64,000 bases of DNA from NCBI RefSeq assembly GCF_008831285.2, contig NC_045140.1, positions 907,528-971,527 of the forward strand. Reading direction: 5' to 3'. Shown one piece after another: positions 1 to 53,101 of the stretch; the first letter of the stretch is position 1, and each line of letters opens with the position of its first letter. Source of the DNA: Nymphaea colorata (Eukaryota; Streptophyta; Magnoliopsida; Nymphaeales; Nymphaeaceae). The notes under the pieces were generated by a model. It had not been told where the DNA came from and did not search any database. It saw only the letters and a program-made list of their open reading frames with translations. The translations under genes were made by a program, and so were the position numbers.

Positions 1-250
1 CTTAATTTTACTTTGATTTAATTTTTTCCACCTTACTTTTCATTCTATTCTTAGAGTTATTGTTCATTAACATACTAATGTTTTTATTTATATCACATGT
101 TTACTAAAATGTTCCTTTCATTTTGATTTTTTTGTGTTATTTTGCATATATGTACACATATATCCTGTCGTACCCCCGTAGCCACATTTTTTAAAGTTGT
201 CGTACCTGTACCCATATCTCCGTACCCGTACCCGTACCCATGTGATTTAG
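1..250 (-). mobile_element. hAT-like non-autonomous element, copy 1 (truncated by window edge)
   Basis: The segment ends GTACCCATGTGATTTAG at 250, and read on the minus strand it opens with CACATGGGTACGGGTACGGG. It is a close reverse-complement match of 10025-10290 over its whole visible length, including the shared runs CAAAATAACACAAAAAAATC and TGAACAATAACTCTAAGAAT. The other terminus and its target duplication lie left of the window. It sits in a BTAF1 intron. Confidence 0.8.
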
Positions 251-1008
251 ATTGGGGCAGATTTGTGGAACATTTACATACTGTTCCAGCTTCCAAACGG
301 CCTGTGTGGTACTTGGCACTGAAAACAAATCTTTGGAATGACTTTTCAATTGTTCAGCAACTATATCACATGGGCATGGCTGTGAATACATGCGCAGGTG
401 CAGGCGAGGGTGCAAAACGATTTGAAACAGTTTGGGCAATGGGTGTGAAGCAATGTTAAAAAACCTGAGTCAGGGACACACACACACACACACACACATT
501 TTTATATATGTATGTGAATTGTTAAACCTTTTCATATCAAAAGCATGACAAAAATTAGGAACTGTACATACCAAAATGAAAACTAAAATTGTTTAGGATC
601 CTAAACAAATGAATGTATGAAACTGTGGCTCATTTGACAACACCAAACTTGAGCCTGGGTGAAGTTTACCTTGCATGTTTGTGGTTGACCATGCTTTTAA
701 TGTCTGACAATTGAATTTGGTAGTTGGAGAAGCACCAGTACCCATTCCAAGTATGACTCAGGTGTGATGACCTCCTTAAAGAGTTTGTGTTACATAGCTC
801 ATTTGTCTGCTGCTAGAGAATAAATTGGTTTAGTACCATCTTGGTGAAAGCACAGTTTTTTAATGTTGAAAAAAAAAGTAATTGGTTATTATCAAGGTCA
901 TTTAAACTTTTGTTGCTTGGACTGTTGGCTGTAAATCCTTCATTTAATTATCTTGGATGTCTCAGACCAACTTGGTTGCTAATGTTTGAAATGTAACGAT
1001 ATGAACAG
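251..1008 (+). other. BTAF1 intron remainder with (AC)n microsatellite
   Basis: This is intronic sequence before the first visible BTAF1 exon. An (AC)n run lies at about 476-498. The acceptor is the AG at 1007-1008. I see nothing else recognisable. Confidence 0.7.
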
Positions 1009-4000
1009 GAAAGGTTGCTTGAAGCTGCGCATAAAAGCTCATCAGAGTCCAACATTACTAGTTTCTGGCCTGCTAGTATTTTAAGTGAGACATTTCGGAT
1101 TGTTTTTCAGAACTTGCTTCTTGAAGCAAACAATGAGATTTTACGATGTTCTGAAAGAGTCTGGAGGCTTCTCCTTCAGGTTTGTTTCTCTGTAATTTTA
1201 ATTGTTCATCTAGTATTTTCTGTTCATTTGATTCTTTTATATGTTTAGTTGCTTCTGATTTCTACACTTTATTTTCAGTGTCCCAGTGAGGAGCTGGATG
1301 TTGCTGCGGGTTCATATTATTCGTCGTGGCTGGAACTGTCAACAACTCCATATGGTTCTGCCTTAGACGCTACAAAAATGTTTTGGCCTGTAATACTACC
1401 CAGAAAAAGCCAGTTTAAGGCTGCTGCAAAGATGAGGGCTGTAAAAGGGGAGAGTGACTCTGGTGGAAATTTTAGTTTACAGGGTGCAAGAGGGATTCCC
1501 GAGCAAGAGCAGAATGTCGATGTTTCTACAAATTCGACAAAAATAATTGTGGGTGCAGACAGTGAAAAGTCGGTCACCTATACGAGGGTAACTACATCAG
1601 AGGCATTGGGCATTTTTGCATCAAAGTTGTCAGAGTCATCAATGCAATATATAGTTGATCTACTGTTAAATGAGCTGAAATCTCTATCAGGGGTTCAGCG
1701 TCAGGTAACTTGGTCTTATTCATCAATTCACTTCATTTTTTTTGGTGAGATATGTATCTCTATCTTCATTTTAGGTGACTTATATTTTCTTGGACTAGGT
1801 GTCTTCAATGATTCTTGCTGCCTGGTTTAAAGAGCTCAAGTTCCGAGATCAACCTAAAATGCCTGCTCTTATGCTTAGCCTTGTCCACCCTCTTCAGAAA
1901 CTATTACTGGATTTGCTTTCATGTCCTGATCCAGCATTTCCTACAAAAGATTTAGTTCACCCTTATTCTGAACTGACAAGGACATACATGAAGATGCGGA
2001 ATGAGGCAGCTCTTTTACACCGAGCGGCTGTTTCATCGGGACTCTTTGACGATATTTTGTCATCTCTCTCTTTCTCAATGGAAACAATTATTGTGGATGA
2101 AGCAATCTCTTTTGCTTCGAAACTTTTGCTGCCAAGCGAGTCTTCCCATGAAGATGGTACTACAGAGAGGCATGGTTTGGAGGATGTGGAGTCATCCAAG
2201 CAACGTCTCTTGTCAACTGCTGGGTATTTAAAATGTGTCCAGGTGCTTGTCACTTTTATAGTCTCGTCTTCTTTTTCAATGTGCTGCTTGATCTCTAGCA
2301 GCACTTCGGTTGATCTATGGAAGAACTTGTTTTATTCGAGATGTAGCAAGTGTTAGCTGTTTTCTTGCATGCTTTTGCCATATAATTAATTGTATTTTCT
2401 TGCATTCTTTTGCAAAATATAATCATTGCTTCAGTCCATAGAGTATGAACTGTTCTACCTCATTCTAATGCTATCAAGTATTAACTTAGGCTGTCATGTT
2501 AACCGCATTTTTGATTTTGCTCATACATTTTGGTAAGTCATCATACTACAGTTGGCAACCGTGGGTCTTTATTTATTGTAGAATAACTAGCTGACAGTAA
2601 GGTATCACTATCATTTTTTTTCCATATGTACTCTTGGAAGCAGATTCTTTCCTTCAAATGTTGTAATTGACATTTTTTTCTGCTGATTGCTTTTCATTTT
2701 TCTGTATCTAAATGGTCTTGCAGAGCAATTTGCATGTTACAGTTACAGCTTTAGTTGCAGGAGCTGTTACATGGATGTCAGATCTTCCTGCTAAATTAAA
2801 TCCAATAATTCTTCCTTTGATGGCTGCAATCAAAAGGGAACAGGTGAACAAAATTCAGACGCAGCAATGAACAATGTTCTTCTTGGTTTATTTTCATATT
2901 CATGCTAATGGTTCCTTCTGTTGCTTGTTAAACTACCTTTTGCAGGAAGAAATATTGCAGAAAAAGGCAGCGGAAGCTTTAGCAGAGCTTATTTTCTGTT
3001 GCATTTCTCGTAAGCCAAGTCCAAATGAAAAGTTAATCAAGAATTTATGCACTTTAACATGCATGGATCCTTCTGAGACGCCCCAAGCAGCTGTGATGAA
3101 GTCAATGGAGATTTTGGAAGATCAAGAATTATTGTCATTGAAGAAAACTCGACAAGGTGAGAAGGCCAGAGTCCATATGTTGTCTGCTGGTGATGAAAGG
3201 TCAAAAATGGAAGGCTATATAGGCAGGAGGGGGTCAGAGCTTGTGTTAAAGTGCCTATGTGACAAATTTGGTGATTCTTTATTTGATAAACTTCCTAAAC
3301 TATGGGATTGCCTTACTGAGGTACTTAAGCCAGCTGTCACAGAAACTACACATCTAACAGAAGGAGCACCAGCAGCACAAAACACTGAGTATATAGGCGA
3401 TCCTCAAGTCTTGATCAACAATCTACAGGTTTGTTTTGATTTAGTCTTGAATGATTGCTGTTCTTGCAATTTGACCATTTTGGGCACCTTAATTTGATTA
3501 TTCTAATTTCAAGGCAGGCAATCTTGTTCTTATTTTTTTCCACAAGCTATTTCTTTGCGGAGCAATCTACCAGCATTCTGTTTTTGTTATTCTGATCCAA
3601 TGGCAGATTATTGCACTGTTGTTGTATCTTGTATCACATTTTTTCTTTGTTAAGGGTTGTTCCTCCTGTTCATGCTTTTTCAAATTGAACAAAGAGCACT
3701 TCTCTGTTCATTAGGACATTTGGTGGAATGATTTCTTTGATTGCATTTCCATGTTTTGGCTCGGGAGATGGAGGAGGTGTTGAACATGTACTCTTCACCA
3801 TGCTTACCGTGTGTACTAAAAAACATGGGTAATATTTTTGAGGGCGTTTTTAAGAAAACAAGGAGGTTGTTGAATATTTGAGTTGTTGGAGCAGGCTTGG
3901 CAATCAAAGGTGCAAGCTGCACAAAGGTGATGGTCTCTAAGCTCTAAATTTCATTATGGAATAAACAAATCAAAATAAGATTGAGGGGATAAGTTTTCTT

Positions 4001-6117
4001 TTTTGTTCTTTTAAAAAGTTCATGTATAAACATCTTCTTTTGGTGTCAAGGGGCAGGCACTTGTTGAAAACACATGTATCAGAGATTCCTAGGAGACTTA
4101 AGCTTCCCACTTGGAAAGGTGAAATAAAATGGAACCATCTGAAGGTGAAAATATCTGCAAATGGTGTTTTTTTGGTGCTAACCTGCTTAAATCAAATATA
4201 TAAACATGGATATGCAAAGAGACGTAACGTTATTAATTTATTAGTTGTTCTTTAAAATGCCACACAGACACATGGTATTAAGTTTATATATATATATATA
4301 TATATATAAATATAATATAATATAATTATATATCTATATATATGAAAATATTTGTACGCTTCATGAGATATGCAGAGTTGCAGACTAAGTAAATATGAGG
4401 ATTTTGATCTGATTAAGAGGTGTCAGATCAAACTCAATTGACAGTTAACAATTTGCCATGCATATTATATGTATGTATCTATGTATATATAATTGTGGCT
4501 ACTCAATGTGTGTCTACTGTCCTTATGCCTTTAAGGAGGTGCCAGTGGTGGGTCTGGGTCTGGTTAACGACTGGAAGTGGGCAGAACTCACTTTACATAT
4601 ACATGTATATGTGTGTGTGTGTGCAGGGACTTGTGGCTGGTAAATGTATGTACTGTTCCTATGCCCTTGAATAGAAAGGAAGTGGGCAGAATTTACTTTC
4701 TGTGTGTATGGAAAGTGAACTGTGGGTACTCAATGCCTGCCTACTCTCCCCATGTCCTTTATTCAAGGAGGTGCTAGTGGTGGATCTCACTAATGATTAA
4801 AAAGAAATGAGCAGAAATTAACTTTTGAATGCTGAACTCCCATGTTATAAAGTTTTCTGGTGATATCATAAGTTGTTATAATTAGGAGTTGAGCATACAT
4901 CAGCCAAGGTCCTAAAAAAGTCTAGTCAAAAGTAAGTAACTAGTAGTAGCCTAAGGGAGATATCTATCTGTGTGTGTGCCACACACAAGGGAGAGAGAGA
5001 GAGAGAGAGAGAGAGGGTGGGGGAGGGGGTTCTCGGAAAAAAGGAAGAAAATGCACCTAAGACCTGTAACTTACCCAATCAACCAATCGGTCATGAACCA
5101 TGGCCAATCTGAGTTGATGATCTTGTAGTCGGCTGGTCATTGATTCAGTCAACTAGTCACCAAGTTGACAGCAGAGATGATGTCCAAAAAGGCAAAAACC
5201 AATGGCTGAAAATGTAGCAAAGCCTTTGTGCATAAAAAACACATTTTCTGGTTAAAATACATGTAAAGGGGATTTTTCATCTGTTGGTCATGCTAAACAA
5301 ATTTACACCATCAGAATATGTAAAACCATCTTTAATGGTGAAATCCAAAATTAAATTAGCAAAAGAAGAGGGTGGAGGCTATTTAACATTGTATAGTATG
5401 TAGGGCACGTGTCCGAGTCTATACATACAAACATGTAAATAACATCACCAAGTGCAAGACCATGTCTCTCCCTCCTTGAACAATGCATATGATAGATGAA
5501 GTGTTAGACAAGGCAAGGTTTGTTGTATAGGCACGGATATGGGCGTCAGACACAGGTATGAACTATGAAGTATTAGACACAGTAAGCTTGAAAAGAGAAA
5601 GTAGGTACTCGAACACGATTTTGTGTGTGTGTCATTTCAATTTCTTTCAAAATCTAAAAGATGATCTCTTTATAAAATTTGCAAGGAACAGATAGTATAA
5701 TTTTACTTAGCTCTCATCCTCCAGCAACTGGAAGAAAGGAGAGAGACCCATGTTACTCCCTCCCTGATCTCTCTGCCCAAGAAAGTCTCATGGGCAAGGA
5801 AATAGCTCTTCTTGCACAAGAAAATAGCATATTTTAAGTTAGTGTTTTGTCTTTTTGGGAGAGAAAATAACCTCTTTTTGGGAGAGGCTCTTTATTTTGA
5901 GCAGTATGCTGCCCTTCTTTAGCTTCTTTTTTCACTAAACAAGAGAGAGAGCAAGAGAGAGAAAGAGAAATTTATTTTAGTCTATTAGACTAAAAAAACA
6001 CACACACACACACACATATATATATATTTAAATCCACTAGACACATCTTGTCTGTAATTTTGGATGCTGTGTAAAAATCCATGTGCCCTAGCAGTGTCTG
6101 CTTGTCGCTGTCAGGGA

Positions 6118-6156
<39 letters not shown>

Positions 6157-9100: not shown

Positions 9101-12100
9101 ACATTATTAAAAATTCAAAGTCAAAAGTTACATGTGCAGTGAAACAGTTGAGAGCTGATCACCGCCTCATTCTCACTGGAACTCCTATTCAGGTCAAAAT
9201 TTCACATGCTACCTTGTAATTTGCTTTTGTGGATGAAGATGTGCTTGTCAATTTTCGGACTTATTTTATCTGGTGGTTGCAGAACAACGTCTTGGAACTT
9301 TGGTCACTTTTTGACTTTCTAATGCCTGGCTTCCTGGGGACCGAACGTCAGGTATTTGTTAAACTTATGGTACATGAAATCTGCAATCAGTACTTGTTTT
9401 CCTGAGGTTTTTGGCCTTTATTTGATTGATGTTCTGAGAGGAAGGAGAGAAATTTACCTTAAAATTTGAAGGGGATGTGTGTGAGAGGGATTGAGAGAGA
9501 TGGCCTTTTGACTTTTTATTGCCCTCAGAGTGTTATTTTTAGGAATTTGTAGCCAGTTTTCCCTCCCCTCATTTTACTTCTGCTATTTATGTGAAGCGAC
9601 TAGGCTGTTCTCCTCAAGCCCTCAATTAGTTTCTTAAGTGGGGAACTTATTTACAGAATACCGGATTGTCTAAAACCTTCTCATTACTTTTGCAAGAGCG
9701 TACTAGGCATTTTAATGTCCAACATTAAATTATAAGTAAATGTGAATAACCTCCCTGGTTGGAAACCTCCACATTACTCTTGGTAGGTTACAAATGCTAG
9801 TTATCTTAGTCTCCACAGTTAAAATCCTAATGCCGAGTAAACAACCAGAAGCCTTAGCTTTAGTATTTTTAGATGCAAGAAGAACTAGATATTCATGTTA
9901 TTAAAATGAGAAATGGTTGTTTATTGTTAGATATCATCATGTCTGTATATTTAGATGCATGTGTTTCTGGTCCAATCCTATGCAGTTGCATTTAGAAAAA
10001 TCTTTTCAAAGCACACCTTTTAGTCTAAGTCACATGGGTACGGGTACGGTTTGAGTACGGGTATGGGTACAAAGATACGGGTACAGACACAACAACTTTA
10101 AAAAATGTGGGTACGAGGGTACGGTAGGATATATGTATGTATATATGCAAAATAACACAAAAAAATCAAAATGATAGCAACATTTTAGTAAACAAGTGAT
10201 ATAAATAAAAACATTAGTATGTCAGTTAATGAACAATAACTCTAAGAATAGAATGACAAGTAAGGTGGAAAAAATTAAATCAAAGTAAAATTAAGTAGTT
10301 TGAATCTAAAGGTACCCGAGTGTGTCCAAGTACCCATTTTGGGTTCGAGTACGACGACACGGGTACGTGGACCTTACTGAAGTACCCATGTGACTTAGCT
10401 TTTAGTATATATTATGTGTGTGTACTGTGTTTGCTGAAATGATGTGTCTCATATGAACCAGTTATTGCTGGACGGTATGTACTAAAATTGCTTTGACAGC
10501 TGACTCACTGTTTGTGGCATAGGATTCTGGTTATATGATAAATGGTTGACCTTTAGCATCATCAGTAGGATCTGCATATAATATTGTCTTTATGCTTGTA
10601 AATAATCGTATAGGTTGATTAGATAGTGTCACATATTTTTTTCTAGCTGCATGTGCACAAAGAATGGCTAAGTGAACCAAAGGGAAGTATCAGGAAACTA
10701 ATATTCAAGATCATGTTGACATAATGAGATTGCTAAATAAATTTGCTCTTAACATGGATAAGCTTGTAAGCAGCTCTCTTGAAAGTTTACCTTATCTCTG
10801 TATAATGGTTGTTCAAGCGCAGCCATAATATATTGTATTAGTTGCTACCAAAGAGAGTACTCAATCCTATTTCTTTATCTGAACAGTGTGTTCCTATTTC
10901 TTATCTGAACAGTGTGTGCTTAGTGTCTCACCTTGATGCGTTTGAATTGTGTCCTAAAATGTTCGACTTTCCAAAATGAATAAACAATGTACTCATTTTA
11001 TGAATATTCATTGGTACTTACTTTGTTATTGGCCATGTCAGTTTCAAGCCACTTATGGAAAGCCGCTGCTTGCAGCCAAAGATTCAAAATGTTCTGCCAA
11101 GGATGCAGAAGCAGGTTGTTTAGCTATGGAAGCACTGCATAAACAGGTCCTCTTTTGATGTTGATTTCTTATCCATGAGAAAGCTGAGCTCCTATGGTGT
11201 GTGTTAAGTCGAGTGTTATTGTCAATTGAACAGGTTATGCCTTTCCTACTTCGCCGAACAAAAGATGAGGTTTTATCTGATCTTCCTGAGAAAATTATCC
11301 AGGACAGGTACTGTGATCTGAGTCCTGTTCAGATGGCACTTTATGAGCAATTTTCCAATTCTGATGCAAGAAGGGATCTCTCATTACTGGTCGAATCAGA
11401 GGACCAGCAGAGCATAGCAGATGTAGCGGCTCCATCAAAAGCATCTACCCATGTCTTTCAGGTACAAGTGGGAGCTGATTTTCAAAGTTACTGGAGTATT
11501 TTATTCCAGTGCTCGTCTGTCCAAGTTTTTAGGAGATTACTTATGTTGAATTATGAATCTCAGGCTATCCAATACTTGCTGAAAGTGTGTAGCCATCCAC
11601 TACTTGTCCTTGGTGAAAAGCCTTCACGGTCTCTTGTGCATCAAATCTCTGATGTCATTCCTGACTGTGCTGAAAATTTGTCATGTCTGCATGAACTTCA
11701 ACACTCTCCCAAGTTAGTTGCTCTTCAAGAGATCCTGGAGGAATGTGGAATAGGCACAGATAATGCAGGCGATGAAGCTGCTATAGCTGGCGGCGGGCAA
11801 CACAGGGCTTTAATATTTGCTCAACATAAAGTATTGCTAATACTGTATTTCGATGTCTGTAGGTGATACAAGTAACTTTTTCATTGCTGACATGCTTACT
11901 TGGTCTTTTTCAGTCCTTCTTGGATATCATTGAGCGAGATCTGTTCCAAGCACATATGAGGAGGTTAGCAAGAAAACAAAGAACTTCAATTTGCATTTGT
12001 TATCATATCTCTATGCTGTTGACTTAGGAATTTCTTTGAGCTTTTTGGAATTTAAAAACTTGAAAAGAATTTAAGGTTGCATTTTCTAATTTTCTTCTTT

Positions 12101-15100
12101 GATGTTCCAGAGAATAAACATTTATAATCCTTAAAAGGCTATGTCACATGGGGCTTGCCAAATAGGCTGCTGCAAGCTTACAACTGGTTGCAGCATGGGT
12201 GCAAAAGGCACCTGGCCATTACAAAAGTGGGCTGGACTTATCTGATATTTCATATTATATATATAGGACGTTGGTTCCGGACCATTCAGACGGACGAGGA
12301 TTTCAGCTCCTCTATATGTATATGTATATGTGTGTATTATATGTATGTATTTATATATATTAGATTCTTTAGTGCACCTGCACTGAAGTTGTTTTAGAAA
12401 ATGCTGGACCTGCACCAGCACTCATGTGAGTTAATCTTGAAGCAACAAATTCATAAATAATACTTTAATGTTGGCCTGTAAAAGTGGCAGGAGAAACTAT
12501 GTTGTTAAGTGTGCACCCAGCTCTAGGCTTGGCTGATTGCCTAGGCTGGCTGTTCCTAGGTGTTCTTTCATTGGGAGATGCGTAGGTCATCATCTTGGCT
12601 TTGCAGGCATTCCTAGGCACTCAATAGCCTAAGCTGTTTTTTCCTACAATCCTATGTCACATGGGTACGGGTACGGGTACGGGTACGGACCATTTTTAAA
12701 AAACTTGGGTACGGGGATACGGCCATACACACATATATGTCAAAAAATTTCAAACATAATAACATATTCGCACATATATATATCAAAAATTACAAACAGA
12801 ATAACATATTATCATATTCATAAATCATAAACCAATAGAAACAGGGATCAATCCAAATAGACGAATCCTCTCATGAAATGATATATCACAACAATAATTA
12901 GGGAAGACGCAGATTTGAAAAATCTGCAATAGGAGACTCAAACATGTCTTATTGCCGAACACATTTATCAAGCCATATTTTTAGCTTGCAAGATGTCTTG
13001 GAGGTTGGAACACAAAACAGCCCCTGGTATAGACACTATAATCAACTTGACTATACCGAGCGGAGCAGCTGAAGCACAATCTCATTCTTCTACTGCAGAT
13101 TAGAGCTTATCAGCTATAACATGGAAAGCAATAGGATTATAGGACAGTAAATGAGGTCAAATCTAAATATTCAGATTCTCTCATATAGTATTGAAATATA
13201 ACGTGATTAAAAGAAATCTAGGCTGCCTTAGACAGTCTGCATCTACTCGGGCATGGAAAATCGGTACAGCAAGCAACAATTTTACGAATACAAAGAAAAG
13301 GAAAAAGAAGAAATGGGACAGAGAGAACCATCGGTCGACAACACTAGCAAATAGAACAGGGGTGGCCGTCATCGTCGTCGTCGTCGATTGTCGCCGGCGG
13401 CGAAGGCAGGGGTGGAGCCGATGAAAATGAAAAGAAAAATGAAAAAAACGAAAAAAATACCGTGACAGTCGCTCCTGCCGTCGCCGTTCCGCCCCTGCGT
13501 TCGCCGCCCCTGCCTTCACTGCTGCTGTCTTCATCGCCGGATGTCGGTCGGTGAGAGGTAAGAGAGAAACTGAAACCCTTAACTTTCGTTTTAAGTTTTA
13601 AGGGTTTCGAACATTCTTTTTTTTTTAACGTTAAAATGGTTTCGTTAAAATTAAAAATGACATTTTTGAACTCAGTCAAATTTGACCGTGTCCAAAAAAG
13701 GACGGATACGGCCTCCGGTGCGTTGACCGTACCCGGTACGGTCAACGCCGCACCATAGGCGTACCCAAGCCCGTACCCGTACCGGTGTCGTACCGGTACC
13801 GGACGGGTACTTCACCTTCACAGGCGTACTCGTGTATCATGGCTACAATCTGAGGTAGTTGAAGTAGTTATTTTTTTCTTTTATACTTTTTCGCCAATTT
13901 TTCTTTTCCTCTTTTCTTTTTGATGCCGACTGTGATTTTGCCTTAAATATATATATGTGTGTAGATTTATATATGCATGTATATAGTCACAAATATCACT
14001 GATATTTTTGTGCTTTTATCACCAAAAAAATAAATATTTTTGTGGGGAAATATTGCAAGATTTTCAGTTTATCACCAAATCGTGATATTACTGCAATATT
14101 TTCACGAGAATAGAGTGCACCATTTCTTGGAAAAATATTTTTCTTGAAGATATTTTTTTGATTTTTTGAAAGTGGCAATGCTGTACAAAGGGAAAAGTTC
14201 TGAAAGCTGAAAATGTATAAAGGCTTAAAGCTTTTGTAATTTGAAAGTTAAAGCATTGACTTTGAATCTTGTTGATGAATTACTATATGTTTTATGCAGC
14301 AATTTGTTGATACTTGGTATGGCAGTATGACGTCTGAGTCATCTGGTGAACTTGTGGTGCTTATGGTTGATTGTGAATTTGTGATATTTGTTACATGTTA
14401 CTTGTTAGTTATTCACTTGTTTCTTAATTGTTATTTGTTATGCAACTTACTTGCTTAATTAGCAAATTCTAACTCATTTCTTTTAGCTTGACATTTTTCA
14501 TGCCTTCATTTTAGCTTTCAGTTATTTTTATTATTTTTTAGGGTTTTTTACTTTTTTTTTGGAAATTCTCAAAAAATAAGCTCACAAATTGAATTTAGGT
14601 GTTCCATTTCCATTCAGTGCATGTGTTAACCACTATATTTTTGCAAGATCTTTTTCTCAATTCTTTTTGGTTGCTTAACGTTAGTTTTACTGTATTTTGT
14701 TCCTTCACATATACATTTTTCGTTTCTTGGAATTTCTGTCATTTAGTGGATTGTAACACCTTCTTTACCGTACCATGTTATGCATATAATTCATGAAGCA
14801 TATGAACAGATGCTATTTCACAATTCACAGGGATTACCTGAGTCAAATCTATTTTGGTAATCTCCATCATACTAGTATCGCCTGTGTTTTTTAGAGTGTT
14901 TTTTTTGTCAATATATGGTGCTTACTATGTTATAACTTGTAAAGGATGGAAGCTTGTTTGTCTTCCAGTTCTTTTTAATGAGTTATCAATTAAAGTTAAA
15001 ATGGATGTTGTGGACACCCTGAGATAGGGAGAGACAGAGTGTGTATACATATATATAAAAGGTGCGTGTATGGGTCCTGAATATTTAATAAAGAAAAACA

Positions 15101-16785
15101 TAGGTGCCCTCCATGACCACGTTTGTCTGTATGAACAGTAAAATTATAATTCAACAATACATTCACTAATTATGAAACATAATTTGTACGAAAAGACACC
15201 ACAGTTATGATACTCTGTCACTCTTGCGACTCTTTTGTTGCTGGAGAGAGAGAGAGCGATGTCTTCTCCAAGGGGGTTGCTGAAGAGAGGGCCCCCTGCA
15301 GACATGGGGAGAAGAAAAAGGAGGATTTTCTTGACCGATCCCTTGCTTCCATAGCTGAACCCTAAGAAAAGGATGATTTTGTATGGGTTAGATTAACTAG
15401 GTTGTTTAAACAAATACATGCATTATGCATAGGTGCATTGACTGCACCTGACATGTTTCTGGCCATGCCCATGGCATGTTTGATTTCTGGCCATGTCCAT
15501 GGCATGCTTGATGCTGAACCTGTACCATGCATGCATGTTGGGCCATGTCAACATGGGTGTAGCTGCCTGGTAGCCATTTTTGTGTGACATAGCTTGAGTA
15601 GGGAAGTTGTGGATTTTTTTGATTCACAATTAACTATGGAAAGCAGCATTTGTTTCCAGCTGTCCTATAGGGCATTTGGGTAGATTGTTGCCTATTAGAG
15701 GGGTCTGAACTTTGGAACAGGAGATTGCAGTAATGGCTGTGGCAAGTAGATCATGGTAACTGTTAAGTGAGGATTTGCATTGCTGTCATGTCTCCAAATT
15801 CAGGTTTCCTCTAATTTTGTCGAGATTAATCACATGTTTGAGTAATTAAGTTCATTCCTAGTTTGTTTGATTTGGTAGCTTGTTTATTAAATGATTGGTA
15901 TAAAAATAGATTCGTTCCTGTTTTCCACATTCATGTGCCCAGTCGGAAGGTCAAGGTATCTAAAGTTTTGCTAGCAAAGCTGTTAGGTGCGCATAATAGT
16001 ATAATTTTCTATTGTCAAAGGACAGAATGCAACTTGCTGAAGTTGCTTGTTTGTGTAACTTATGTTGGTGATCCCTACTTTGTTTGCTAGTTTTATCAAA
16101 ATGCTGAGTAGGAAGCTGTTGAACTTGAGACTGTGTATAACATGCCTTTTCTTTTTCTCCATGGGCAGTATCACGTATTTGCGTCTCGACGGATCGGTTG
16201 AACCAGAAAAACGTTTCGAAATTGTTAAAGCTTATAACTCTGACCCTACTATCGATGTTCTCTTACTCACAACACATGGTATGTAGTGCTATTCTTAACC
16301 AAGTTGCTGTCTTTTAAGTGTTCACTAGAACATCATTGCCATTTTGCATGTATCAACAGTTGGAGGGCTTGGATTAAATCTTACATCTGCGGACACCCTC
16401 ATTTTTATGGAGCATGACTGGAATCCAATGAGGGATCATCAGGTATCTCACTCTTCCGTTCTTTGATGATGAGTTCGCTGAAGCTTCTCTGTACAATTGT
16501 TTTCTTTTTGCTCCAAAAGTTTCTCTGTTGGCATCAATTTGTTCGCTGCCACTCATGAAATTATCTGTACGGGAGGACTGCTGGAACAACAGTAGCACAG
16601 AACGGGTTATTGAATACTTGACCGTAGACTCTCCTCTCTCCAGCTGCATACGCGATGTAGGATTAACTTGCTATCTTGGTTTTTTGGTGAAATTTGCTGC
16701 TGCATGCTTGTGTTTGGGCCGCCAGATGCCCTCTTTCACACCCAACAAAGGCCACCATATCATCCAATGAAAATTCACTTGTGCA

Positions 16786-16833
<48 letters not shown>

Positions 16834-20600: not shown

Positions 20601-20799
20601 ATGATCAGTGAAAAAAAAACTAGTAGAGATGGCCAGAAAATGGCAGAATGTGGCAATAAGAGAAAGAAGAAGAATCTCTTTTGGTGGAGCAGTAGTTCGG
20701 AGGAGCAACATAGGAAAAACAATACACGAAGTTGCTGATAAGGGCCGTTTTGCTCTAAAAATTGCATGTATCAAGCATTTAGATGACATCCAAAACTAA
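20601..20799 (+). pseudogene. SAUR-like pseudogene 1 (frameshifted, C-terminally lost)
   Basis: The ATG at 20601 starts MIS as in the intact copies. A run of nine A residues after it holds one extra base compared with the sister gene at 23524, which shifts the frame. Downstream the original frame reads KLVEMARKWQ...RRRISFGGAVVRR...VADKGRFA, clearly the SAUR N-terminal half. After GRFA similarity ends and a stop comes at 20797. The core SAUR domain is missing. A GTG at 20608 would keep the frame but is an unlikely start. Confidence 0.8.
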
Positions 20800-23523: not shown

Positions 23524-23970
23524 ATGATCAGCACAAAGAGGCTAGTAGAGATGGTCAGGAAATGGCAGAAGATGGCAATAAGAGGAAGAAGAAGAATCTC
23601 CCTTGGTGGAGTAGCAGTGCGGAGGAGAAATGTCATAGGAAAAGCAGCAGAAGGTGGTGAGAAGGGCCATTTTGCAGCTTATGCAGCAGATGGTAAAAGG
23701 TTCATGATTCCCCTCACATATCTCCATCTGCCCATCTTTCAGCAACTTTTGAGGATGGCAGAGGAGGAGTTTGGGTTGGACATCAATGGTGCAATCACAT
23801 TTCCTTGTGATTCTGCACTTCTGGAATGTGTCATGTTGCTGGCACAGAGAGGCAGACTCGTAGAGGTGCAGAATATATTGATGGTCTCGTTTAGTCACCA
23901 GAGTTGCTCATCATCGTCTTCATTGCAGCAAATTCAGGCTTCTCGACAAGTACTGTTCAATGTCTGCTAA
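23524..23970 (+). CDS. SAUR family auxin-responsive protein (SAUR61-68-like clade), intact
   Basis: This is an intronless 148-residue ORF that opens MISTKRLVEMVRKWQKMA, the signature start of the SAUR61-68 group. A basic RGRRRISLGG segment follows. The SAUR domain runs from about residue 47 to 113: KGHFAAYAADGKRFMIPL, LPIFQQLLRMAEEEFGLD, and ITFPCDSALLECVM. A serine-rich tail (SCSSSSSL) closes the protein. SAUR proteins of this kind inhibit PP2C.D phosphatases at the plasma membrane and so promote cell expansion (family knowledge; not shown for this gene). Length is normal for the clade. The ATG is the first after the TATA box and matches the sister copies. Confidence 0.93.
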   Translation: MISTKRLVEMVRKWQKMAIRGRRRISLGGVAVRRRNVIGKAAEGGEKGHFAAYAADGKRFMIPLTYLHLPIFQQLLRMAEEEFGLDINGAITFPCDSALLECVMLLAQRGRLVEVQNILMVSFSHQSCSSSSSLQQIQASRQVLFNVC

Positions 23971-27922: not shown

Positions 27923-28015
27923 GTTAGCCCAACAACCAGAAGATTATCATCCACAGCACACAGACACAATCTTCTAGTTCTATAACATATATTTGGCGTT
28001 TGAGAAATTGCAAGA

Positions 28016-28459
28016 ATGATCAGCGCAACGAGACTAGTGGAGATGGCCAGGAAATGGAAGAAGATGGCCGCCATGGGAAGACGAAGAATCTCGCTAGGCA
28101 AAGTGGTGGAGAGGAGCAACAGCAGAAGAAAAGCAGTAGCAGTTGCGGACAAGGGGCATTTTGTGGCTTATGCAGCAGACGGCAAGAGGTTCATGCTTCC
28201 TCTGGCTTACCTCCAACTGCCCATCTTCCAACAGCTGTTGATAATGGCAGAGGAAGAGTTCGGATTGGACATAGAAGGAGCAATCACGTTTCCTTGTGAT
28301 TCTGCATTCGTAGAGCATGTGATGGCACTGCTGAAGAAGGACAAGTTGGGAGCGGTAGAAAATGTATTGTTAGTCACGTTAGCTAGCAGGGGGTGCTTGC
28401 CATCTTCTTCATTGCCTCCAAGCCATCCCTCCCGTCACGCGCCCCACAATGTGATTTAA
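28016..28459 (+). CDS. SAUR family auxin-responsive protein (SAUR61-68-like clade), intact
   Basis: This is an intronless 147-residue ORF starting MISATRLVEMARKWKKMA, a close paralogue of the gene at 23524. The basic segment GRRRISLGK comes before the SAUR domain: DKGHFVAYAADGKRFMLPL, LPIFQQLLIMAEEEFGLD and AITFPCDSAFVEHVM. The tail is rich in Ser, Pro and His (SSSLPPSHPSRHAPH). It is probably auxin-induced and growth-promoting, as for the clade. The two paralogues differ mostly in the residue 30-45 linker and the tail. Confidence 0.93.
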   Translation: MISATRLVEMARKWKKMAAMGRRRISLGKVVERSNSRRKAVAVADKGHFVAYAADGKRFMLPLAYLQLPIFQQLLIMAEEEFGLDIEGAITFPCDSAFVEHVMALLKKDKLGAVENVLLVTLASRGCLPSSSLPPSHPSRHAPHNVI

Positions 28460-28892: not shown

Positions 28893-29840
28893 TGGGTCAC
28901 ATAGAGATCAATTAACTTGGGAAGCAGATTATCAATACCTTTTCCTTTCCTAACAGTTCATTGAGTTGTTGAGGCAGTGGTTCATGTGATCATGCTACCA
29001 TGCCCGCGATTAGCACTAGATGTGTGACTACTGAGATAATCTCAGCATGCATGCATGAATCAGGAGCAAGTGGTCCACCTGTTAGTCCTTGCATATTCTA
29101 CCAGTTCAGAACTTTTGGAATGATATGAATGGTTTCTTTTGCTAATGGATTACAAGACAAAAAGTCTTATTGTTCATGATTCACTGGTTCAGGACTGGTT
29201 CCTCCAAGGGTTTCGATGTGCTCTTGAGACACATTTTCTTTTTCCAATTTGATTCTTCCTTCCAATTTTTCGAGGTTGAAGCAGACCAGATACAGGAATT
29301 TAATGTCCCCTTCGAACTTGGCTTGTTGAGCACCATATATATATAGTATATATCCTTAAACATATTCCTTTGAATTCACAGATAGATTCTACCAGCAGGC
29401 AGCAACTTATGATATCCCTCTGTATGCTATAAACGTATTCGATGCTAAGATCATACCAGAAACCAGTGCAGATTAAGCATTTTCAGATTTACCTTCATCG
29501 ATTCATCTGCATTTAACTTTCATATGCATATGTAACATGACAATGGGCAATTAATATGTTCCGGAGATGAACACTACTATACTGAAGGCATTTTGAAATC
29601 CACTGGAACCCTACTAAGGGCTGAATAGTATATTAAAGAAATGATAGCAGAATGAATCTTAAAAAATTTCACCAGTAGAACCTTGCAAAAACTTCCAGGA
29701 CATCATCATTTGACAAATCTAAAAGCGAAAAATAACTAATTAACACAATCCATTGCCCACAACTAAAGTTTCAGTACAATGGTGATATAACATTGGTCAC
29801 CAGGGCAATACCCACATGGCTACCAGTTACAGTATGTGAA

Positions 29841-29930
29841 CCATTGGCAAAGGTCATAGAGCTACATCTTCTGAACGCAAAACAACCATTGGCAAAGGTC
29901 ATAGAGCTACATCTTCTGAACGCAAAACAA
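29841..29930. repeat. Perfect 45-bp tandem duplication
   Basis: Two identical 45-bp units, each starting CCATTGGCAAAGGTCATAGA, abut at 29885/29886. The lack of any difference suggests a recent event. Confidence 0.95.
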
Positions 29931-30160
29931 CCTGGAGATGTTGATCAATGAAACTATTGCTTTCTCAGGTCCAGTTTGTAATTCATCTACTCTAGGATTG
30001 TACAAGAATTTTTCTGCCTTTCAAAGATAAATCCAGTTGTAATTTAAATGCATCTTGTACATGCCAGGAGGGACAGGGTTAGTCCCTTTTTTACAACTTG
30101 CAGATTGATATCAGCAAACTTGCAAATTCCTTAATCTCCTCAAAATTTTCCCGTTTGCAG

Positions 30161-30166
<6 letters not shown>

Positions 30167-30194
<28 letters not shown>
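30167..30194. repeat. (AC)n microsatellite
   Basis: AC dinucleotide run directly left of the truncated hAT-like copy 6. Confidence 0.85.
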
Positions 30195-30199
<5 letters not shown>

Positions 30200-30202
<3 letters not shown>

Positions 30203-30327
30203 TGTAAGCACACACATGCACATATGCCCTGCCGTACTCCTGTACCCATTTTCTTTTAAATTGCTGTGCTTGCACCTGCACCACCATACCTGCACTTGCA
30301 TTTAGTACTAGCACCCATGTCGCTTAG
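30200..30327 (-). mobile_element. hAT-like element, copy 6 (5'-truncated, GGTGC subtype)
   Basis: It ends GCACCCATGTCGCTTAG. The order of motifs CCCTGCCGTACTCCTGTACCC, TTTTAAATTGCTGTGC, then CACCTGCACC parallels copy 1 at 140-250 block for block. Only one terminus is recognised; the other side runs into an (AC)n tract. Confidence 0.55.
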
Positions 30328-35567: not shown

Positions 35568-35572
35568 ATTAC

Positions 35573-35860: not shown

Positions 35861-36707
35861 ATTACCGTCCTCTATTTACACAAGCACATCTCTCTCTCTC
35901 TCCCCCCTCTCTTTCTCTCCCTCTCTAGTTTCTCTCTTTACTACCTGAAAAGAACAATGTAGTTTCACAAGTTGAGGCCCAATCCATTCAGACTTAGCTT
36001 TTGGATGTTGATCAAGTTCATGGGCGCAATTCTTTCCCTTACTTTATTCACACCAAGTTTGGGAAGAGACGAGCTGATCAACTACTGGTAGCATATCTAG
36101 TGGTTTCCCTTACTTTTCCCTTCATTTCCAGACTTGTTTAGTCACTAGGTCATATCATACTAAGCCCTGGTCCAACTGCATGCGTATCTTTCAGTTTAAT
36201 TTGTTCGCTTGTGTCTTGTGAAAGCTGAACACGCTATCAAGGCATCAACATGCTAATTGGTAGTAAATTGAAGAGATTCTAATGCAAGTGCTTGCACCCT
36301 TCATCATTTAAATTTTTAGATGCTATTGTGAGTCTCGGCTTCTTGGTTGAATTCTTAATTTCGTATTAGCTCTGTCCTAGTTGGTCTCCATGACTGAACC
36401 TCTTGCTCTTGGCTCAACCAGTAATTTTACCACAATAAAAATTTGGGCTTCTATTTTGTTACTTGTGGTTGGCATTGGCCACATAGGGTTAAGAGATATC
36501 ATTGGATACCAATTCAAAGGTCCATTCATTTGATGCATTTACAGTAAGATTACGCCTACGTTGCCATGGCTGAAAGCAAACCCGTATGTTGGCCATGTGG
36601 CGTTGTCCCCTACGTGCTTACCAGGTCCCACTTGAATTTGAAGAAAATGAAGAACCCAAATCCAATTCTCTGTTTACATTAACAGGAAACGAAACCTATC
36701 TTCGATT

Positions 36708-36717
36708 TATATATATA
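36708..36717 (+). promoter_or_regulatory. TATA box of SAUR locus 5
   Basis: TATATATATA lies 183 bp before the ATG at 36891, further than in the intact SAUR copies. Confidence 0.55.
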
Positions 36718-36890
36718 CCAATGTTCAGCTACCAGAGCTTGATTGCCTTCAGTACTTGAGTTTCGGTTTACCATTTGAACAACATTAATGATCTTCTTAA
36801 TTGGTCAGCATCTTGCAAGGGCAGTGAAGCATTGAGGGAAGGAAAATTGTATAAGGTCTAAGCTGTATCCTAGAAGCATCATATTTGAGA

Positions 36891-37309
36891 ATGATCTGCA
36901 CAAGGAGTCTGATAGAAATAGCTAGGAAGTGGCAGAAAAAGGCGACTAGTGGGAGGAAGAAAATCTCACTTGGTAGTGTCTACAAGAGCAGCAGCAAAAG
37001 AAAAGCCTCTAAAGTCGAAGATAAAGGCCGTTTTGTAGCTTATGTTACAAATGGCAAAAGGTACATGATTCCCTTCACTTACTTGAAGAATAAGTTCTTC
37101 AAAATTCGTTGAGTTTACCAAAAGAAAAGTTCAGATCAAGCCTTGAAGACGCAAACTCACTTGTCATACATCTGTTTGTGCACCGAGACTTGCCTAATGC
37201 AGCTGAAGAATACATGATGGTCTTCTTCAACGACATTTTGCTGCCTATCATGTGGTGTTTCCTGAAACTCACCCGCCTTCAATATGTTCATACTTCAATA
37301 TGGTTGTAA
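36891..37309 (+). pseudogene. SAUR-like pseudogene 5 (truncated, frameshifted)
   Basis: The ATG at 36891 opens MICTRSLIEIARKWQKKA. A basic SGRKKISLGS segment and DKGRFVAYVTNGKRYMIPFTYL follow, all SAUR. The frame then reads KNKFFKIR and stops at 37110, before the second half of the domain. Faint C-terminal similarity resumes in the frame of 37109-37309, where LPNAAEEYMMVFF matches the LVEVQNILMVSF of the gene at 23524. It may still be transcribed as a short protein of 73 residues. Confidence 0.75.
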
Positions 37310-39980: not shown

Positions 39981-42900
39981 TCAAAGTTTTGAAACCAGTC
40001 CGTTCTGCATAGGCTTTGCAACTCCATTGTCCTTTATATCTGTATCACAAGGAGATGGTGGGACATCAACTGCTGGTGAGCAATTGAAGAAGCCATGGGG
40101 CTGCATACAACAATTTGATGCTGTTAGAAATGGATAACTGCAACACACCAAAGCCCCTCGACCTTCCCTTGAGATGAAATGGTTATACTGCTCTCAATGG
40201 GAAGGATAGAAGGGATAACAATACAAAAAGAATGTTGCATATGCATGATATATAAGCATGACAACATTCAATGGAAGATCTGGTCCATGGATTGAAGCTT
40301 TAAATTTCAAAGGTCGGTGAAGAAATCACCATTTTGTAAAAAAAAAAAAAGAAAAAGAAAAAAGAAAAGAGGAATTGCCAAGAATTTGGGAGAAGAAAAG
40401 CTCTATAGTACAATCTACCACAAGCTATCGAAGGTTGGTATACACAGGCCAAACCTTTCACCACCACAAAGTCTTAGCTGAATGTAAATGCAAAAATGAA
40501 TTAAGTCCCTAAACCATGTCCTGCACCTATCCTGCAGGATTTCTCTTTTCACCAGGTTGGCACAAATATGACAGTCACCGTGAACCTACATTTCTAGCGA
40601 AATGGAACATCTATGTTAGAAAAGAGTATTGCACCATAGATTGTGTGTGTGTGTCTGTGTGCACAGGATTTTTCTTTACACCAGGTTCGCACAATATGAC
40701 ACTGGGAACCTAGATTTCTAGGGAAATGGAACATCTATGTTAGAAAAGAGTATTGCACCATAGTTGTCTGTGTCTGTATGCGTAGATTGGTATTGCACTT
40801 AGGTCAGGGTTCTGCTTTCGGATTCTAAAATAAAGCTGAAGAAAGAGATCTATAAAATTTTCTCAAAATGGCGAGTAAAGAGAAGTGCATCATGGATTTG
40901 GCAAAGAAATCAATACCTATATGACTTCTGGGAGCAAATGCATGCAATTGATACAAAGGAATAAGAAGAAAAAGAAAGAAATACTGGATCTTAGCAATAC
41001 CAACATACCAGTAGCATAAAACCTAGTCTGTCCACAGGCATGACAGGCCAGTCCTCCAATCGAGGGATGTGTGTGATTCCAAAGACATACCTGAAATGGA
41101 TGATCAACGTGATTTTAGATAGTTCACAATGTGGCAATAAATATTTGAAATAGTTAAATCGGCTAAATGGCTAGGACCTAGGTCATTTCAGGATCAGCTG
41201 GTCACTAACCAATATCAGCATTAAGAGAAGATTAGATAGATTATTTGTCTACAATGAAATGCAATCCATGCTGCTAGAAAAGTTAACATGAATGCATACA
41301 AGACACTACAGATTTCCAGCTGCTGTGAAGATCAAGTTGCACTATCCACATGATAGCATGAGTAACAAGTTTAAACCACAATCTGAGGAGTCCACTGTCA
41401 TCTTTTTCTTCCAAAATGAGTTTCAGTAAAAAGAACAGACAAGTTTGCGCACAAAGCATCCACTAGAAAGAAAACCACAAGTACCAAAATAGGAAAAAGA
41501 AAAAGAAAAAAAACACGACAGAAACAAATTAAGGAGAGGGCAGAAAACCGAAAAAACCTAGCTACTAGTGGATCTTCAGAAAGCCACAGCCTTGGGGGAT
41601 CTAATCTAGCCAAATCATGGCCTTCTGATTTTCTTTAAAAGAGGACCCAAGTGCCAGATGATTAATCAAGACTATTGAATTTGTTTGTTGTGGCCAACAT
41701 AACTGAAACATCTTTACTTCAAGCCAAAGAAACCATCAGAAAGCAAAGTTTGTAGCAGCAGGAACTTTTTCCCTTTGACACTCATTCAGGGAGCAAAAGC
41801 AACTAGCTGCATCCAGGAAATTATTTTGTTGTGCTAACGACATTAACAACTGAAAAATTTTATCTATAAAAATAAGAAGTATAACAATTAAGAACAGTAA
41901 ACAACTTTCCAAATATAAAATTTTGTTTTCTCCTTCAGTTATAGACTAAAAATTCAGTGTTTTATGTATCGTTCAGTATAGCAAATAAGTAATGATTAAT
42001 CATAACTCTGGGAGAAACCAACACTGTACACCCTCCAACAAGTTTAACGGACGTAAGTATCCTGTGTCAGGTATCACTTATGATACACCATCTATCTTAC
42101 TTTTCAGGACAATATGCAAGGTCCATTGCTTTATACCTCCAAATACATAAAGAGTACAGGAACTTTGGGTTTTTTTTTTGGTTCCTCTTTGCACTCTGCA
42201 GTTACATATATTATGGGCAGGCTTGGACTTCCATTTTTCTTTCTCGTCTCCTTTTTTTTTTGGAAGCCTATAGTTGCCTCAAAATAAAAAAAAAATGTTC
42301 TTATTAAATTTTCTTTAATCTTGTACATGTTAATTATTGGGAATGATTCAGGTTAAGTTTTAATTACCGTGTGAAAATTTTCACACTACTCTAAAATATT
42401 TTTTAATCATTGTACACTTAATATTTTACGAGATTGAAGGTGTTATGTCTTCTCTCACAATAAAATAAGGAAAAAATAGCAGCAAATGCTTGGCCTTCTG
42501 CCAGATCACATAAAATAAATAGCATAAGTAGAAGTAGAACTAACCAAAGAACAATATCTGTTTCCTCAAGGGGACGATTTTGTTGCACCCATGTGGCTAG
42601 CCCTTCACCAGCGCGTGGATTTTGATTAGGAAACTCGCCTCCAGGATACCTTTCTTCACGATTATAAGCTGTGACCCAGAGGTTGTGCTTCAGGAAGGCA
42701 GCCCTTCGCAAGAACTTTGCTTCAGAACCAGCCAAAGGCAAGCAATTTGAACCAGGCATCAGTTTATAGCCAGTGAGTTGTCCTGTTCGGTTTACAGCTC
42801 TTGTATTTCGAATCTATAGACGCCAAAAAATCTTCTTAGAAACTTCTTATGCTTCCAGATAGCAAAATAGTGCAACCCTAAGATAACTAATTAAATTCAA

Positions 42901-48900: not shown

Positions 48901-50893
48901 CAAAGGATTTTATGGACATGAGGAACATCATCGCTGTTCATTTGTTAATTTCCAGTTGCCTATAAAGTGGTACCAGAAACTAGAAAGATCACAATGATAT
49001 AGAAACTGTCAAAAGAAAATTCCACCCGTTTTAGTATAAGAATTAATGACTTGCCTGATAGAAGTGCCAAAAGAATCCATATTCATAATTTGCAACAGTA
49101 CATATAAATGATACAGACAGACGCCTGGATCGCCTGACTTCAGCTAATCCTGTCCTCCAGTCTTGATGCTTCCACAAAATTCCAAAATCTTCTTCATGCA
49201 AGCAGACACAATTCTCGATTGTCTCCACACCCCCACTGAAATTTGTAAAATGGGCATCAAAGTATTTGATAAACCCCAAACAGTCACACCCCTACATGGT
49301 AAATTAATAATATAAGCTTATACTTGATTGGCTGAATGCAACAATATGCAGCACACTAAATCAGTAATTGATTAAGAAGTGCATACTGAATTAAGAGTAC
49401 CTTCTTAAGAGAGTGAGCATTTTTGCCCAAGCCATCTTCCCCAGCATCAAATGCATTTTTTCGATAATGAGGGTCATTTGGATCCCCATATGGAACAACC
49501 ATTTCAACAAAGCTCAACCTATGCGCCACAGACCTCCGTCCACGACTACCATCAATATATGCAACAGAGTAGATAACCAAACCCTCCCTGGGTGTAAAAC
49601 CAATTCGAAAATTCCACTGTACAACATGAAGTCAGAAAGAGATTAAGAACTTAAAGAAGATTGAAAAGTCGAACTTTTATGAAATGGACCAAATTAACAT
49701 GTTAAAAAAAGGTAACCTTTTGCCACTCCACGAAGTATCCATTAACACGAAAACTAGGACCTTCTGGCTGAATAATTTGCAATGGTTTTACATCACTTCG
49801 GTCAACACCTCCTCTGGTTTCCCCAGGGGTATAATTTCTTAAAGGATCAGCTGGAGGCAAAGGAACAAGTTTACGGTCTTCAAACTCAATAACCTCCATA
49901 TTTTGCATGTCAACAAGTACATGTATGCCTTCAACTGGGCGTGCATATCCATTCTCCATTGGGCAGTCACTCTCAGTTCTGCAGAAAATAAGTGGCTTTG
50001 CAAGCCGACGGCTAGGGGCATCTGCTTCACTATGGTAACCAGCACACCTGCAAAGGATTGTCACAAATACAAGTAGGTTAAAATCCAGAAGAGAAAATGA
50101 CTCGATCAAAAGATGTAAGCAAACATCTAGGATCCTACCATGGGTCCACCATAACAAGATCCATGTCTTCTATTCCCCTTTTCTTCATGGCTTCCCTGAA
50201 GGGTGGGTAATCCTTAACAACAGCTTCACATTCAGCATATTCCTCTGCATCCTGTAATCATGGTTAAAGATGACAGAAAATGCAGACCATAAGCAAATGA
50301 ATCTACATTGCCTTAAGTTGGTGGCATTTAGAGCTGATAGAAGGACCTATACTAGTTCAAAAGCAATATCAACAATGGAAACTCATATGCATGAATGGCC
50401 ATACTATAACTGTAAAGACAAGGAAACAGGAAATATACTTATAAAGGGTCTATACTAGTTAAACGACAATATCATATATAGGAATCATATGCATGACTAG
50501 TCATAGTCATACTGTAACTGTAAAGGGGACAGGTAGCCTCAATTAGCAGTCTAGCAAAGAACTGGACACCTAGTCTATAAAATTTTCTTATTTCAGAGGA
50601 ACTTATATCTGGCATGAAAAAAGGTAGACAGCTGCCTATCGATGAAAATAATACAAGTTCCAGTTCGCCACCAAATCCATGATTTAGTCAAGAATTTCAT
50701 AGGATCCATTAGGCAATATGATATCCTGATGCTTCTGGGTCTCAAAAATGCAAATTATGAGATCATATAATGCATGAAGGGTCATATGAATGTCAATGAC
50801 ATATTGCACGTCTGAGTTCTACCATGGAAAATACAACTCTACGCCTAACTATTTGTGTTAAGAGAGAGACAAATTTCTCAAAAAAATAAATGA

Positions 50894-50992
<99 letters not shown>

Positions 50993-53055
50993 AAGAGAGA
51001 GAGAGAGTGAATAGTGACTCCAGCTATCCAAAGTCTCCCAGCCCACTCATGAGGGCCGTCCGATCTATTATGAGAAAAACAAGGAGAAAAATCTATGAAG
51101 TAAGCATACAGGTTAACGAAAATGCTCGTTACCCTTTTTTCTTGTTTTTCTCTCAATCATCCATCACAATGGATCAACAACTCTCATGAAGGACCTGCGT
51201 GACTTTGGCTATCCAGAGTCACCATTCAATTTTTCCTATATATACACACACACACATGCTGGAAACCTATATCACATGGGTGCTTCTAAATGGCTACCGC
51301 ACCTGTGTCGATGCTGGTGCTGGTGCTTATCCGACACAGCACATCCAGTTAGGTCAGCCAAACTGCCTCAAACTGACCATTTTAAATGTGCACATAACTA
51401 AACTATCTCTAATACATAAAGTTTATACGTATATATAGATAAATAAGGCTAATAAACTGTTAAATAGCTATCCAACAAATGATTCATATGCACACACGCA
51501 CACACACACACACACACACGTGTGTGTGTGTATATATATATATCGCCACACCCCATGTTTTAAGGCCTCACCTAGGCGTAGACTAAGCGTGAGTCCACAC
51601 CCATCGCCTAAGTCCACCAATTAGGTGACGGGACATGTGTTGGTGCCTGGGCACGCCTAGTTCATGGAAAAGTGAAAAGTCACATTCCCTTTCATTTAAA
51701 GTTTATTAATTGAGTATACATTGTTATGTACTTTATTTTGTATTGATTACATACTTTTATGTTGATTATGCCGTTATATGTATGCTGTTATATGTATCTA
51801 CTGTATACTGTTAGTCACTCAGTCCGTTATATAGTATCGTGTTATCTCATACCTGCCATATGTATACATTACTATGGTTATGTTATGTACTTATATCATA
51901 TAGTTATATGTAATGTTAATTTGTTAGACTTATACCTATTATAGACTTATATGTGTATAATATTATGTACTGTTAGTCTGTTTCGTTAACCTGCTGTTAT
52001 ACCTGTTACATGTATTGTAATATCTGTTATATGTATTGTAATTTGTTGTAATATTGTTATAATACTGGCTGTTATACCTGTTATATGTATTGGAATACAA
52101 TTTGTATTCCTGTTATGTGTATTGCAATATGTGTTATATGTACATACTGTTATGTACAGTCTGATGTACCTGTTATATAGTGTTGCAACAACCTATTATA
52201 TGTATATACTGTTAGCCTCTTATATAATATGTAGTATTGTGATACCTAGTATATGTATACATTAATATGGTTATGTACTTATATGTATTATTATTGTTAT
52301 GTACTTATATGTATACTATTATGTACTGTTAGTTGTTTTATTATATTATGTCTTTTTTTAAGTACAAATAGACTAAAGCCTTCTTGCGGATTTACATTCC
52401 TTCTTCTAGAGATTAGATTTAGTTTTTTTTTCTTGTATTAGATCACATTTAATGAATAATATTAAACTTCTTCTATTGATTTTGCATATTCAATGAAGTC
52501 AACAATTAAATTTTTATTGTTTAAGTTGATTATGCTTGTTGTATTACTATTCTCCACATTTCAAATATTAATAATAGACTAATAGTTAATCAAAATAACT
52601 TGTCATATTAACATAACTTAAAAAATTAAAAAAAATTGGTTTGCCTAGGCTCGCCTAGACGCGCCTAAGCGCTAGGCGCTGCCTGCTTGGGTGCCTTGAC
52701 AACATAGGACACACCTGCACCTAAATTTTTTTGGCCGCATCCGCACCCCACACCCATGTGACATAGCTGACAACGTTTATCCAATTAATGCAACATGATA
52801 TATATATATATATATATATATAAACAATGACTTTGGCTATCCAATGTTACTCAGCATCTAACCAGGGCCATCCATCTAAAGCGTATGGATAGTTGATAGA
52901 AAAATAAAAAGGCAAAGGTGTGAACTAATACTAGATGATGAAAATGCCCAGCACCTTTTTCTCTCTGTTTTTTTCTAAAATGTTGATCATGTTGGGTAGA
53001 ACGACCTGGTTAGATGGCTGGATGACTGAAAAATTAGAATCAACATTCAATTTCC

Positions 53056-53101
<46 letters not shown>

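Follow-up and report, generated by a model that had tools for sequence, protein, structure and literature searches.

Transposons of the hAT superfamily depend on a transposase that binds both ends of the element, excises it and inserts it with an 8-bp stagger. Their terminal inverted repeats (TIRs) begin with the consensus YARNG, and 8-bp target duplications also occur beyond this superfamily. Complete hAT elements are described as having TIRs of 10–25 bp and lengths of 2.5–5 kb (PMC3942097), and the maize element Ac is bound at a hexamer, AAACGG, located in its terminal 200 bp (PMC3260210). For the house fly element Hermes, PMC10368747 describes two fingers that bind cooperatively to a quasi-palindromic pair of repeats beside one TIR; capture of this end is proposed to come first, and at the opposite end the repeats all run in one sense. 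Here we describe a putatively new family of this known superfamily from the plant Nymphaea colorata, detected through short repeats in a 64,000-bp stretch of contig NC_045140.1 (positions 907,528 to 971,527 in assembly GCF_008831285.2; hereafter the window). When natural copies are compared by sequence, the two ends of this family prove asymmetric: one, which we call the L end, carries direct RGGTRC hexamers, and the other, the R end, combines a terminal GGGTRC with an inverted GYACCC.

The original prediction was of a hAT-like family whose segments in the window share a 17-bp terminus, and the terminus is real: CTATGTCACATGGGTRC has nine matches in the window at up to three mismatches, against 0.17 expected (100 shuffles, largest count 2). 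The genome search that had been suggested as a check found the exact terminus 612 times in the genome (407.8 Mb, 783 contigs) and the reversed pattern not once. We retrieved the first 100 ends listed, which come from contig C1 and part of C2 and are not a random sample, and examined 10 kb of inward DNA for 20 of them and about 680 bp for the other 80. Pairing required an inverted partner matching at least 11 of 17 bases and a duplication with at most one mismatch. By this rule 39 of the 100 ends have an 8-bp duplication at 7 or 8 of 8 positions, 25 of them exact, so the further duplicated copies foreseen by the prediction do exist. Duplication lengths of 5, 6, 7, 9, 10, 11 and 12 yielded 5, 6, 0, 3, 0, 1 and 0 ends, and swapping flanks between loci yielded 3 of 500; one further locus, L022, has an exact duplication and was left uncounted because its partner (10/17) falls below the cut-off of 11. 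Read from L to R, the 24 distinct exact duplications lean to nTTnTAnn, with T at positions 2, 3 and 5 in 15, 16 and 14 of them, respectively, and A at position 6 in 18. The start of the element, CTATG, has T at position 2 and so departs from YARNG, but its boundary is fixed by the exact duplications that adjoin the terminus.

The family also has its own transposase. One of the first 20 loci, L016, shows the terminus and then, about 450 bp inside and on the opposite strand, an open frame matching the hAT dimerisation domain PF05699 (E 6.1e-10); the frame upstream matches DUF659 (E 9.9e-18). With the 201-residue frame of L016 as query and a cut-off of E 0.001, a search of the genome in which 150 of 977 candidates were scored gave at least 280 matches at E ≤0.001, and among the matches listed at least 21 loci have an open frame that reaches 620 residues or more and is not interrupted by a stop within the match. 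We sampled 12 copies (eight of the 21 open-frame loci and four with shorter frames) and scanned 651 bp past the C-terminus for the terminus in its expected orientation. It was present at 15–17 of 17 bases in 11 of the 12, followed in most by an array of direct hexamers, while shuffled stretches mostly reached 9–11 and at most 14 (240 shuffles). The genome thus holds hundreds of family ends and many copies of the transposase.

Three complete elements with 17-bp ends were delimited, and these are the long copies encoding a hAT transposase that the prediction had suggested looking for. L121 (contig C6; 3,450 bp) and L122 (C2; 3,543 bp) have exact 8-bp duplications, ATCCTAAG and CTTCTACT respectively, and one open transposase frame each, of 670 and 698 codons (stop to stop). 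PF05699 is found in both (E 3.7e-13 and 1.5e-14), as is DUF659, and the two transposases are 58% identical. The third element was a prediction: an R end at C11:2784421, the L end in L117 and a transposase match at C11:2787081-2787746, listed with a 709-residue open frame, pointed to it, and it was then confirmed at 3,890 bp with the exact duplication GAGCGAAA on both sides. The C-terminal regions of L121 and L122 match Hermes (E 1.2e-7) with the SER motif aligned, and the acidic triad (DDE residues) can be assigned tentatively. Their N-terminal regions share conserved C-x2-C, H and C residues. Among the 40 titles listed of the 168 papers that contain one of six end strings, no plant transposon family is named, and a narrower search, combining an end string with terms for transposases and target duplications, returned no paper.

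Two transposase copies, one on C6 and the other on C5, agree at 97.5% over 408 bp but differ in their flanks, and eight of the 21 open-frame loci share an E-value of 5.4e-57 for one protein stretch and three more share 1.0e-56; we regard this as a sign that the family may have moved fairly recently. Many short copies are related to the complete ones: 22 of the 39 elements paired in the genome have one or more stretches that match L121 or L122. The window copy at 12652–13842 matches L122 on both sides (93% over 188 bp at the L end, 67% over 522 bp on the R side) and is therefore an internal-deletion derivative retaining DNA from upstream of the gene. Five short copies (L035, L039, L043, L076 and L077) have a central inverted 45-bp piece that is 91–96% identical to positions 1700–1744 of the L121 element. 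The first long copy found, L014 (6,693 bp), was rejected as an autonomous element; it is a short element with nested insertions, namely an open frame of 1,368 codons, which we read as a retrotransposon-like polyprotein, and a relative of the L121 type. L016, L017 and L018 (C1, about 3.90–3.98 Mb) are decayed, carry pieces of transposase and share one flank. They look like segmental duplications, as the identity of L016 and L018 is 98.7% across 9 kb, flank included; no partner end of L016 was found within 10 kb.

To compare the ends, L and R were told apart with a profile of the bases that lie inward of the L terminus. This was possible for 39 of the 42 paired elements (39 from the genome and 3 from the window), the others being L048, L083 and L094, and L121 and L122 complete a comparison set of 41. 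An inverted GYACCC (at least five of six bases, starting at bases 28–39 from the tip) occurs in 33 of the 41 R ends and in 5 of the 41 L ends. Of the 33 R ends that have it, 28 carry it from base 33 onward, and in 28 of the 41 elements the terminal GGGTRC (bases 12–17) and the inverted hexamer (33–38) have centres 21 bp apart. Direct RGGTR within 23 bp after the terminus, by comparison, is found at 37 of the L ends and 10 of the R ends. A genome-wide gapped search that allowed 21 spacings returned 41 matches from 40 distinct ends, against none in the control, and 30 of the 40 share the single 21-bp spacing. When all 100 ends were taken unpaired, 55 fitted the L rule, 11 the R rule and 4 both. 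In the three complete elements the R end lies on the promoter side, 916 bp (L121) and 1,009 bp (L122) from the open frame, and the L end lies beyond the stop codon. A score for stem formation was higher at R than at L in 34 of the 39 paired copies and lower in 4, and among the 32 copies outside the training set it was higher in 27 and lower in 4.

This division of the ends recalls Hermes, which resembles the family in the C-terminal region of its transposase, its 8-bp duplication and its divided ends as described in PMC10368747. The Hermes motif is AAGT/AAGC instead of RGGTRC, the pair here being centred 21 bp apart, and the present family has a DUF659-type transposase and a plant host. Ac/Ds, as described in PMC3260210, shares subterminal hexamers at both ends, the 8-bp duplication and heterogeneous short non-autonomous copies, but has AAACGG and an 11-bp TIR instead of RGGTRC and the 17-bp CTATGTCACATGGGTRC. 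The medaka element Tol2 is described as having, at one of its ends, a palindrome that immediately follows the TIR (PMC10368747); its motif, AAGT, is unlike RGGTRC. Given ends divided as in Hermes, we propose that events follow the Hermes order here, with RGGTRC as the motif. The transposase from complete copies would move the short copies in trans, and by analogy with Ac and Hermes its N-terminal zinc finger would bind the hexamers, which may thus be the sites it recognises. Two fingers would occupy the R-end pair, separated by two turns of the helix, and the R end would be captured first and the L end second. We consider it very likely that this explanation, a hAT family with asymmetric ends whose binding and order of capture would follow Hermes, is correct.

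Several observations weigh against this explanation. By the pairing rule, 61 of the 100 ends have no partner with a duplication (with about 680 bp of inward DNA for 80 of the 100), 30 fit neither the L nor the R rule, and the inverted hexamer is missing in 8 of the 41 R ends. The assignment of L034, L055, L086, L101 and the window copy at 51267 relied on scores below 10 bits, and that of L055 on none. One of the 12 sampled transposase copies, L113, has no family end within 651 bp, and 17 of the 39 paired elements, including most GTGC copies, have no match to L121 or L122. The Pfam BED finger gave no match in L121 or L122 at E 0.1, and a structure model of the transposase was poor, with a mean predicted local distance difference test score (pLDDT) of 38, most of residues 31–100 lying in blocks at 73–81 and residues 41–50 at 49. 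Finally, the stem score does not favour R in L121 (L 6, R 5) or L122 (L 6.5, R 6), perhaps because of the self-complementarity of GTAC. As it failed to separate the ends in these two elements, it was dropped as a test for a hairpin, and the position of the inverted hexamer replaced it as our measure after this result had been seen. For the same reason we describe the R end as an inverted pair of sites and not as a folded hairpin.

The prediction also took the two hexamer variants, GTAC and GTGC, to be subfamilies. This stands insofar as they are, by sequence, lineages of one family that agree at both ends, and has to be modified insofar as intermediates exist. The fraction of A in the hexamers of L and R ends is correlated (Spearman 0.74, n=37), in 30 of 33 elements the inverted R hexamer is of the variant that predominates in the L array, and the variable base of the R terminus agrees with its inverted copy in 29 of 33 elements of the paired set and in 37 of 40 ends genome-wide. 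The 41 elements form a cluster of 23 that are mostly GTAC, a cluster of 10 that are mostly GTGC, and eight single copies; the concordance rests largely on these two groups of related elements, so that very few independent changes may lie behind it. Among L-type ends with a G terminus, 18 arrays are mostly A, 20 mostly G and 4 equal, and with an A terminus 14 are mostly A and 3 mostly G; the base at the terminus does not by itself determine the array. Both hexamers are mixed in the window end at 30327, in L016–L018 and in L119, and none of the 11 transposase-linked ends read from the 12 sampled copies is purely GTGC.

How far the R-end pair reflects recognition by the transposase can be questioned on grounds of descent, for within the same hAT family the inverted hexamer could have been inherited from a few founding R ends while only the 17-bp terminus was recognised. 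The clustering of 23 and 10 of the 41 elements, the R ends without the hexamer and the failure of the stem score in L121 and L122 agree with such an origin. It nevertheless seems to us rather doubtful, as the hexamer keeps its position in 28 of 33 R ends though the 15 intervening bases differ between lineages, and its variable base tracks the terminus. That the family is not hAT at all, but belongs to another superfamily with 8-bp duplications or consists of immobile repeats, could be argued from the occurrence of such duplications elsewhere and from the T at position 2 of CTATG. With the hAT dimerisation domain inside complete elements, the match of the transposase to Hermes and family ends beside 11 of 12 transposase copies, this possibility is in effect refuted.

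The two lineages raise a separate question, since it is possible that different transposases serve them. If GTAC and GTGC were separate subfamilies, each with its own enzyme, the agreement of the variants at both ends would be expected, as would the lack of matches to L121 or L122 in most GTGC elements. The mixed copies, the absence of a purely GTGC end beside any transposase read, and the near-equal division of arrays behind a G terminus speak against it, and we think such a separation unlikely. Under the explanation that we prefer, one family with divided ends, the lineages would be the outcome of a drift in the recognised hexamer that affected both ends in concert. A bolder version, which we put forward tentatively and do not expect to be the likelier outcome, is that recognition by the transposase co-evolved, the bound hexamer switching between GTAC and GTGC in step in the L array, both arms of the R end and the terminus. 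The lineage would have kept moving throughout, as exact duplications suggest, and the mixed copies would be intermediates; if true, the switching of binding sites in a hAT transposase would be traceable within one genome.

Within the window, the copies (Table 1) are non-autonomous and mostly decayed members of one diverse hAT family. Of the four pairs checked for target duplications, two have the exact 8-bp duplications and a third the 6 of 8 reported in the prediction, all three matching at length 8 only (lengths 4–11 tried), and the flanks of 12139–12434 agree at only 3 of 8, so that this pair has no duplication. The predicted ends were recovered with some changes to the segments: 1–250 and 30200–30327 show one end each, at 250 in reverse orientation and at 30327; a right end given as 12433 lies at about 12434; and a possible seventh copy near 15400–15594 does have an end at 15592, for which no left partner was found by duplication. 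An end at 361 (+), with no partner within 3 kb, was missing from the list.

Table 1. Copies and ends of the family in the window, with their target duplications
Feature	Position	Strand	Description
Element fragment, GTAC type	1..250	-	L end at 250 (terminus 234-250); remainder off the window start
L-type end, GGTGCA-like units	361..500 (500 nominal)	+	Terminus with 3 mismatches; periodicity p 0.04
Complete short copy, GTAC type	10025..10398	+	L end 10025; R end 10398 with inverted hexamer
Target duplications of 10025-10398	10017-10024, 10399-10406		CTTTTAGT, 8/8
Short copy, GTGC type	12139..12434	-	Ends assigned by eye; duplication not preserved
L122-type deletion derivative	12652..13842	+	L end 12652; R end 13842
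Target duplications of 12652-13842	12644-12651, 13843-13850		CTACAATC, 8/8
R-type end, GTGC type	15460..15592 (start nominal)	.	Inverted hexamer at expected place
L-type end at 30327	30200..30327	-	GTGC hexamers outside, GTAC inside; rest merges into (AC)n tract
GTGC-type copy	51267..52766	-	R end 51267; L end 52766 (weak profile score 4.9)
Duplications of 51267-52766	51259-51266, 52767-52774		CTGGAAAC/CTGACAAC, 6/8

The segments 1–250 and 10025–10398 are 90.6% identical over 244 bp and, on this alignment, are two copies of one short element. By eye, 12434 looks like an L end and 12139 like an R end whose inverted hexamer has decayed. The copy at 51267–52766 aligns at 79% identity over 224 bp with L019, a 377-bp genome copy with which it can be grouped. 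Its interior looks enlarged by a nested repeat, as CCTAGG-rich inverted stretches seen by eye at 51556–51680 and 52640–52710 suggest. GGGTAC/GTACCC occurs 25 times in the 3,839 bases of window elements and 8 times in the other 60,161, and GGTGCA/TGCACC 8 and 32 times, respectively. Six-base periodicity reached shuffle p < 0.05 in 8 of the 12 window ends tested and was below significance at 12139, 12434, 52766 and 15592. CA/TA microsatellites lie inside or beside many L ends (window 30162–30195, 51491–51519 and 480–500; L025, L027, L034 and L083), and family copies carry short CACACATATATA seeds at microsatellite sites near L ends.

Elsewhere in the window, open frames have matches to DUF3535, HEAT and SNF2 domains, which we take together to be a MOT1/BTAF1-like gene, as well as to an auxin-responsive (SAUR-like) family and copper amine oxidase. 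The stretches at 20613–20708, 23535–23630 and 28027–28122 are related, the latter two at 85% and 68% to the first, and look like a small local gene family because the frame at 28004–28459 encodes an auxin-responsive (SAUR-like) protein. A nearly perfect palindrome lies at 53091–53194, its overlapping 54-base arms 94% complementary. Tandem duplications occupy 29839–29932 (a 45-bp unit twice, without mismatch) and 40535–40777 (a 124-bp unit about 1.9 times at 87%). A scan against viral contigs gave no match.

Taken with the complete elements, what appeared in the window as short repeats can now be defined as a family of transposons, some of whose copies in this plant genome are complete and may have been mobile recently. 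An asymmetry of ends of the kind known biochemically for Hermes can here be seen by comparing natural copies. Moreover, with a pair of lineages that are each concordant in their hexamers between the two ends, the recognition of DNA by a transposase could be followed through natural change.

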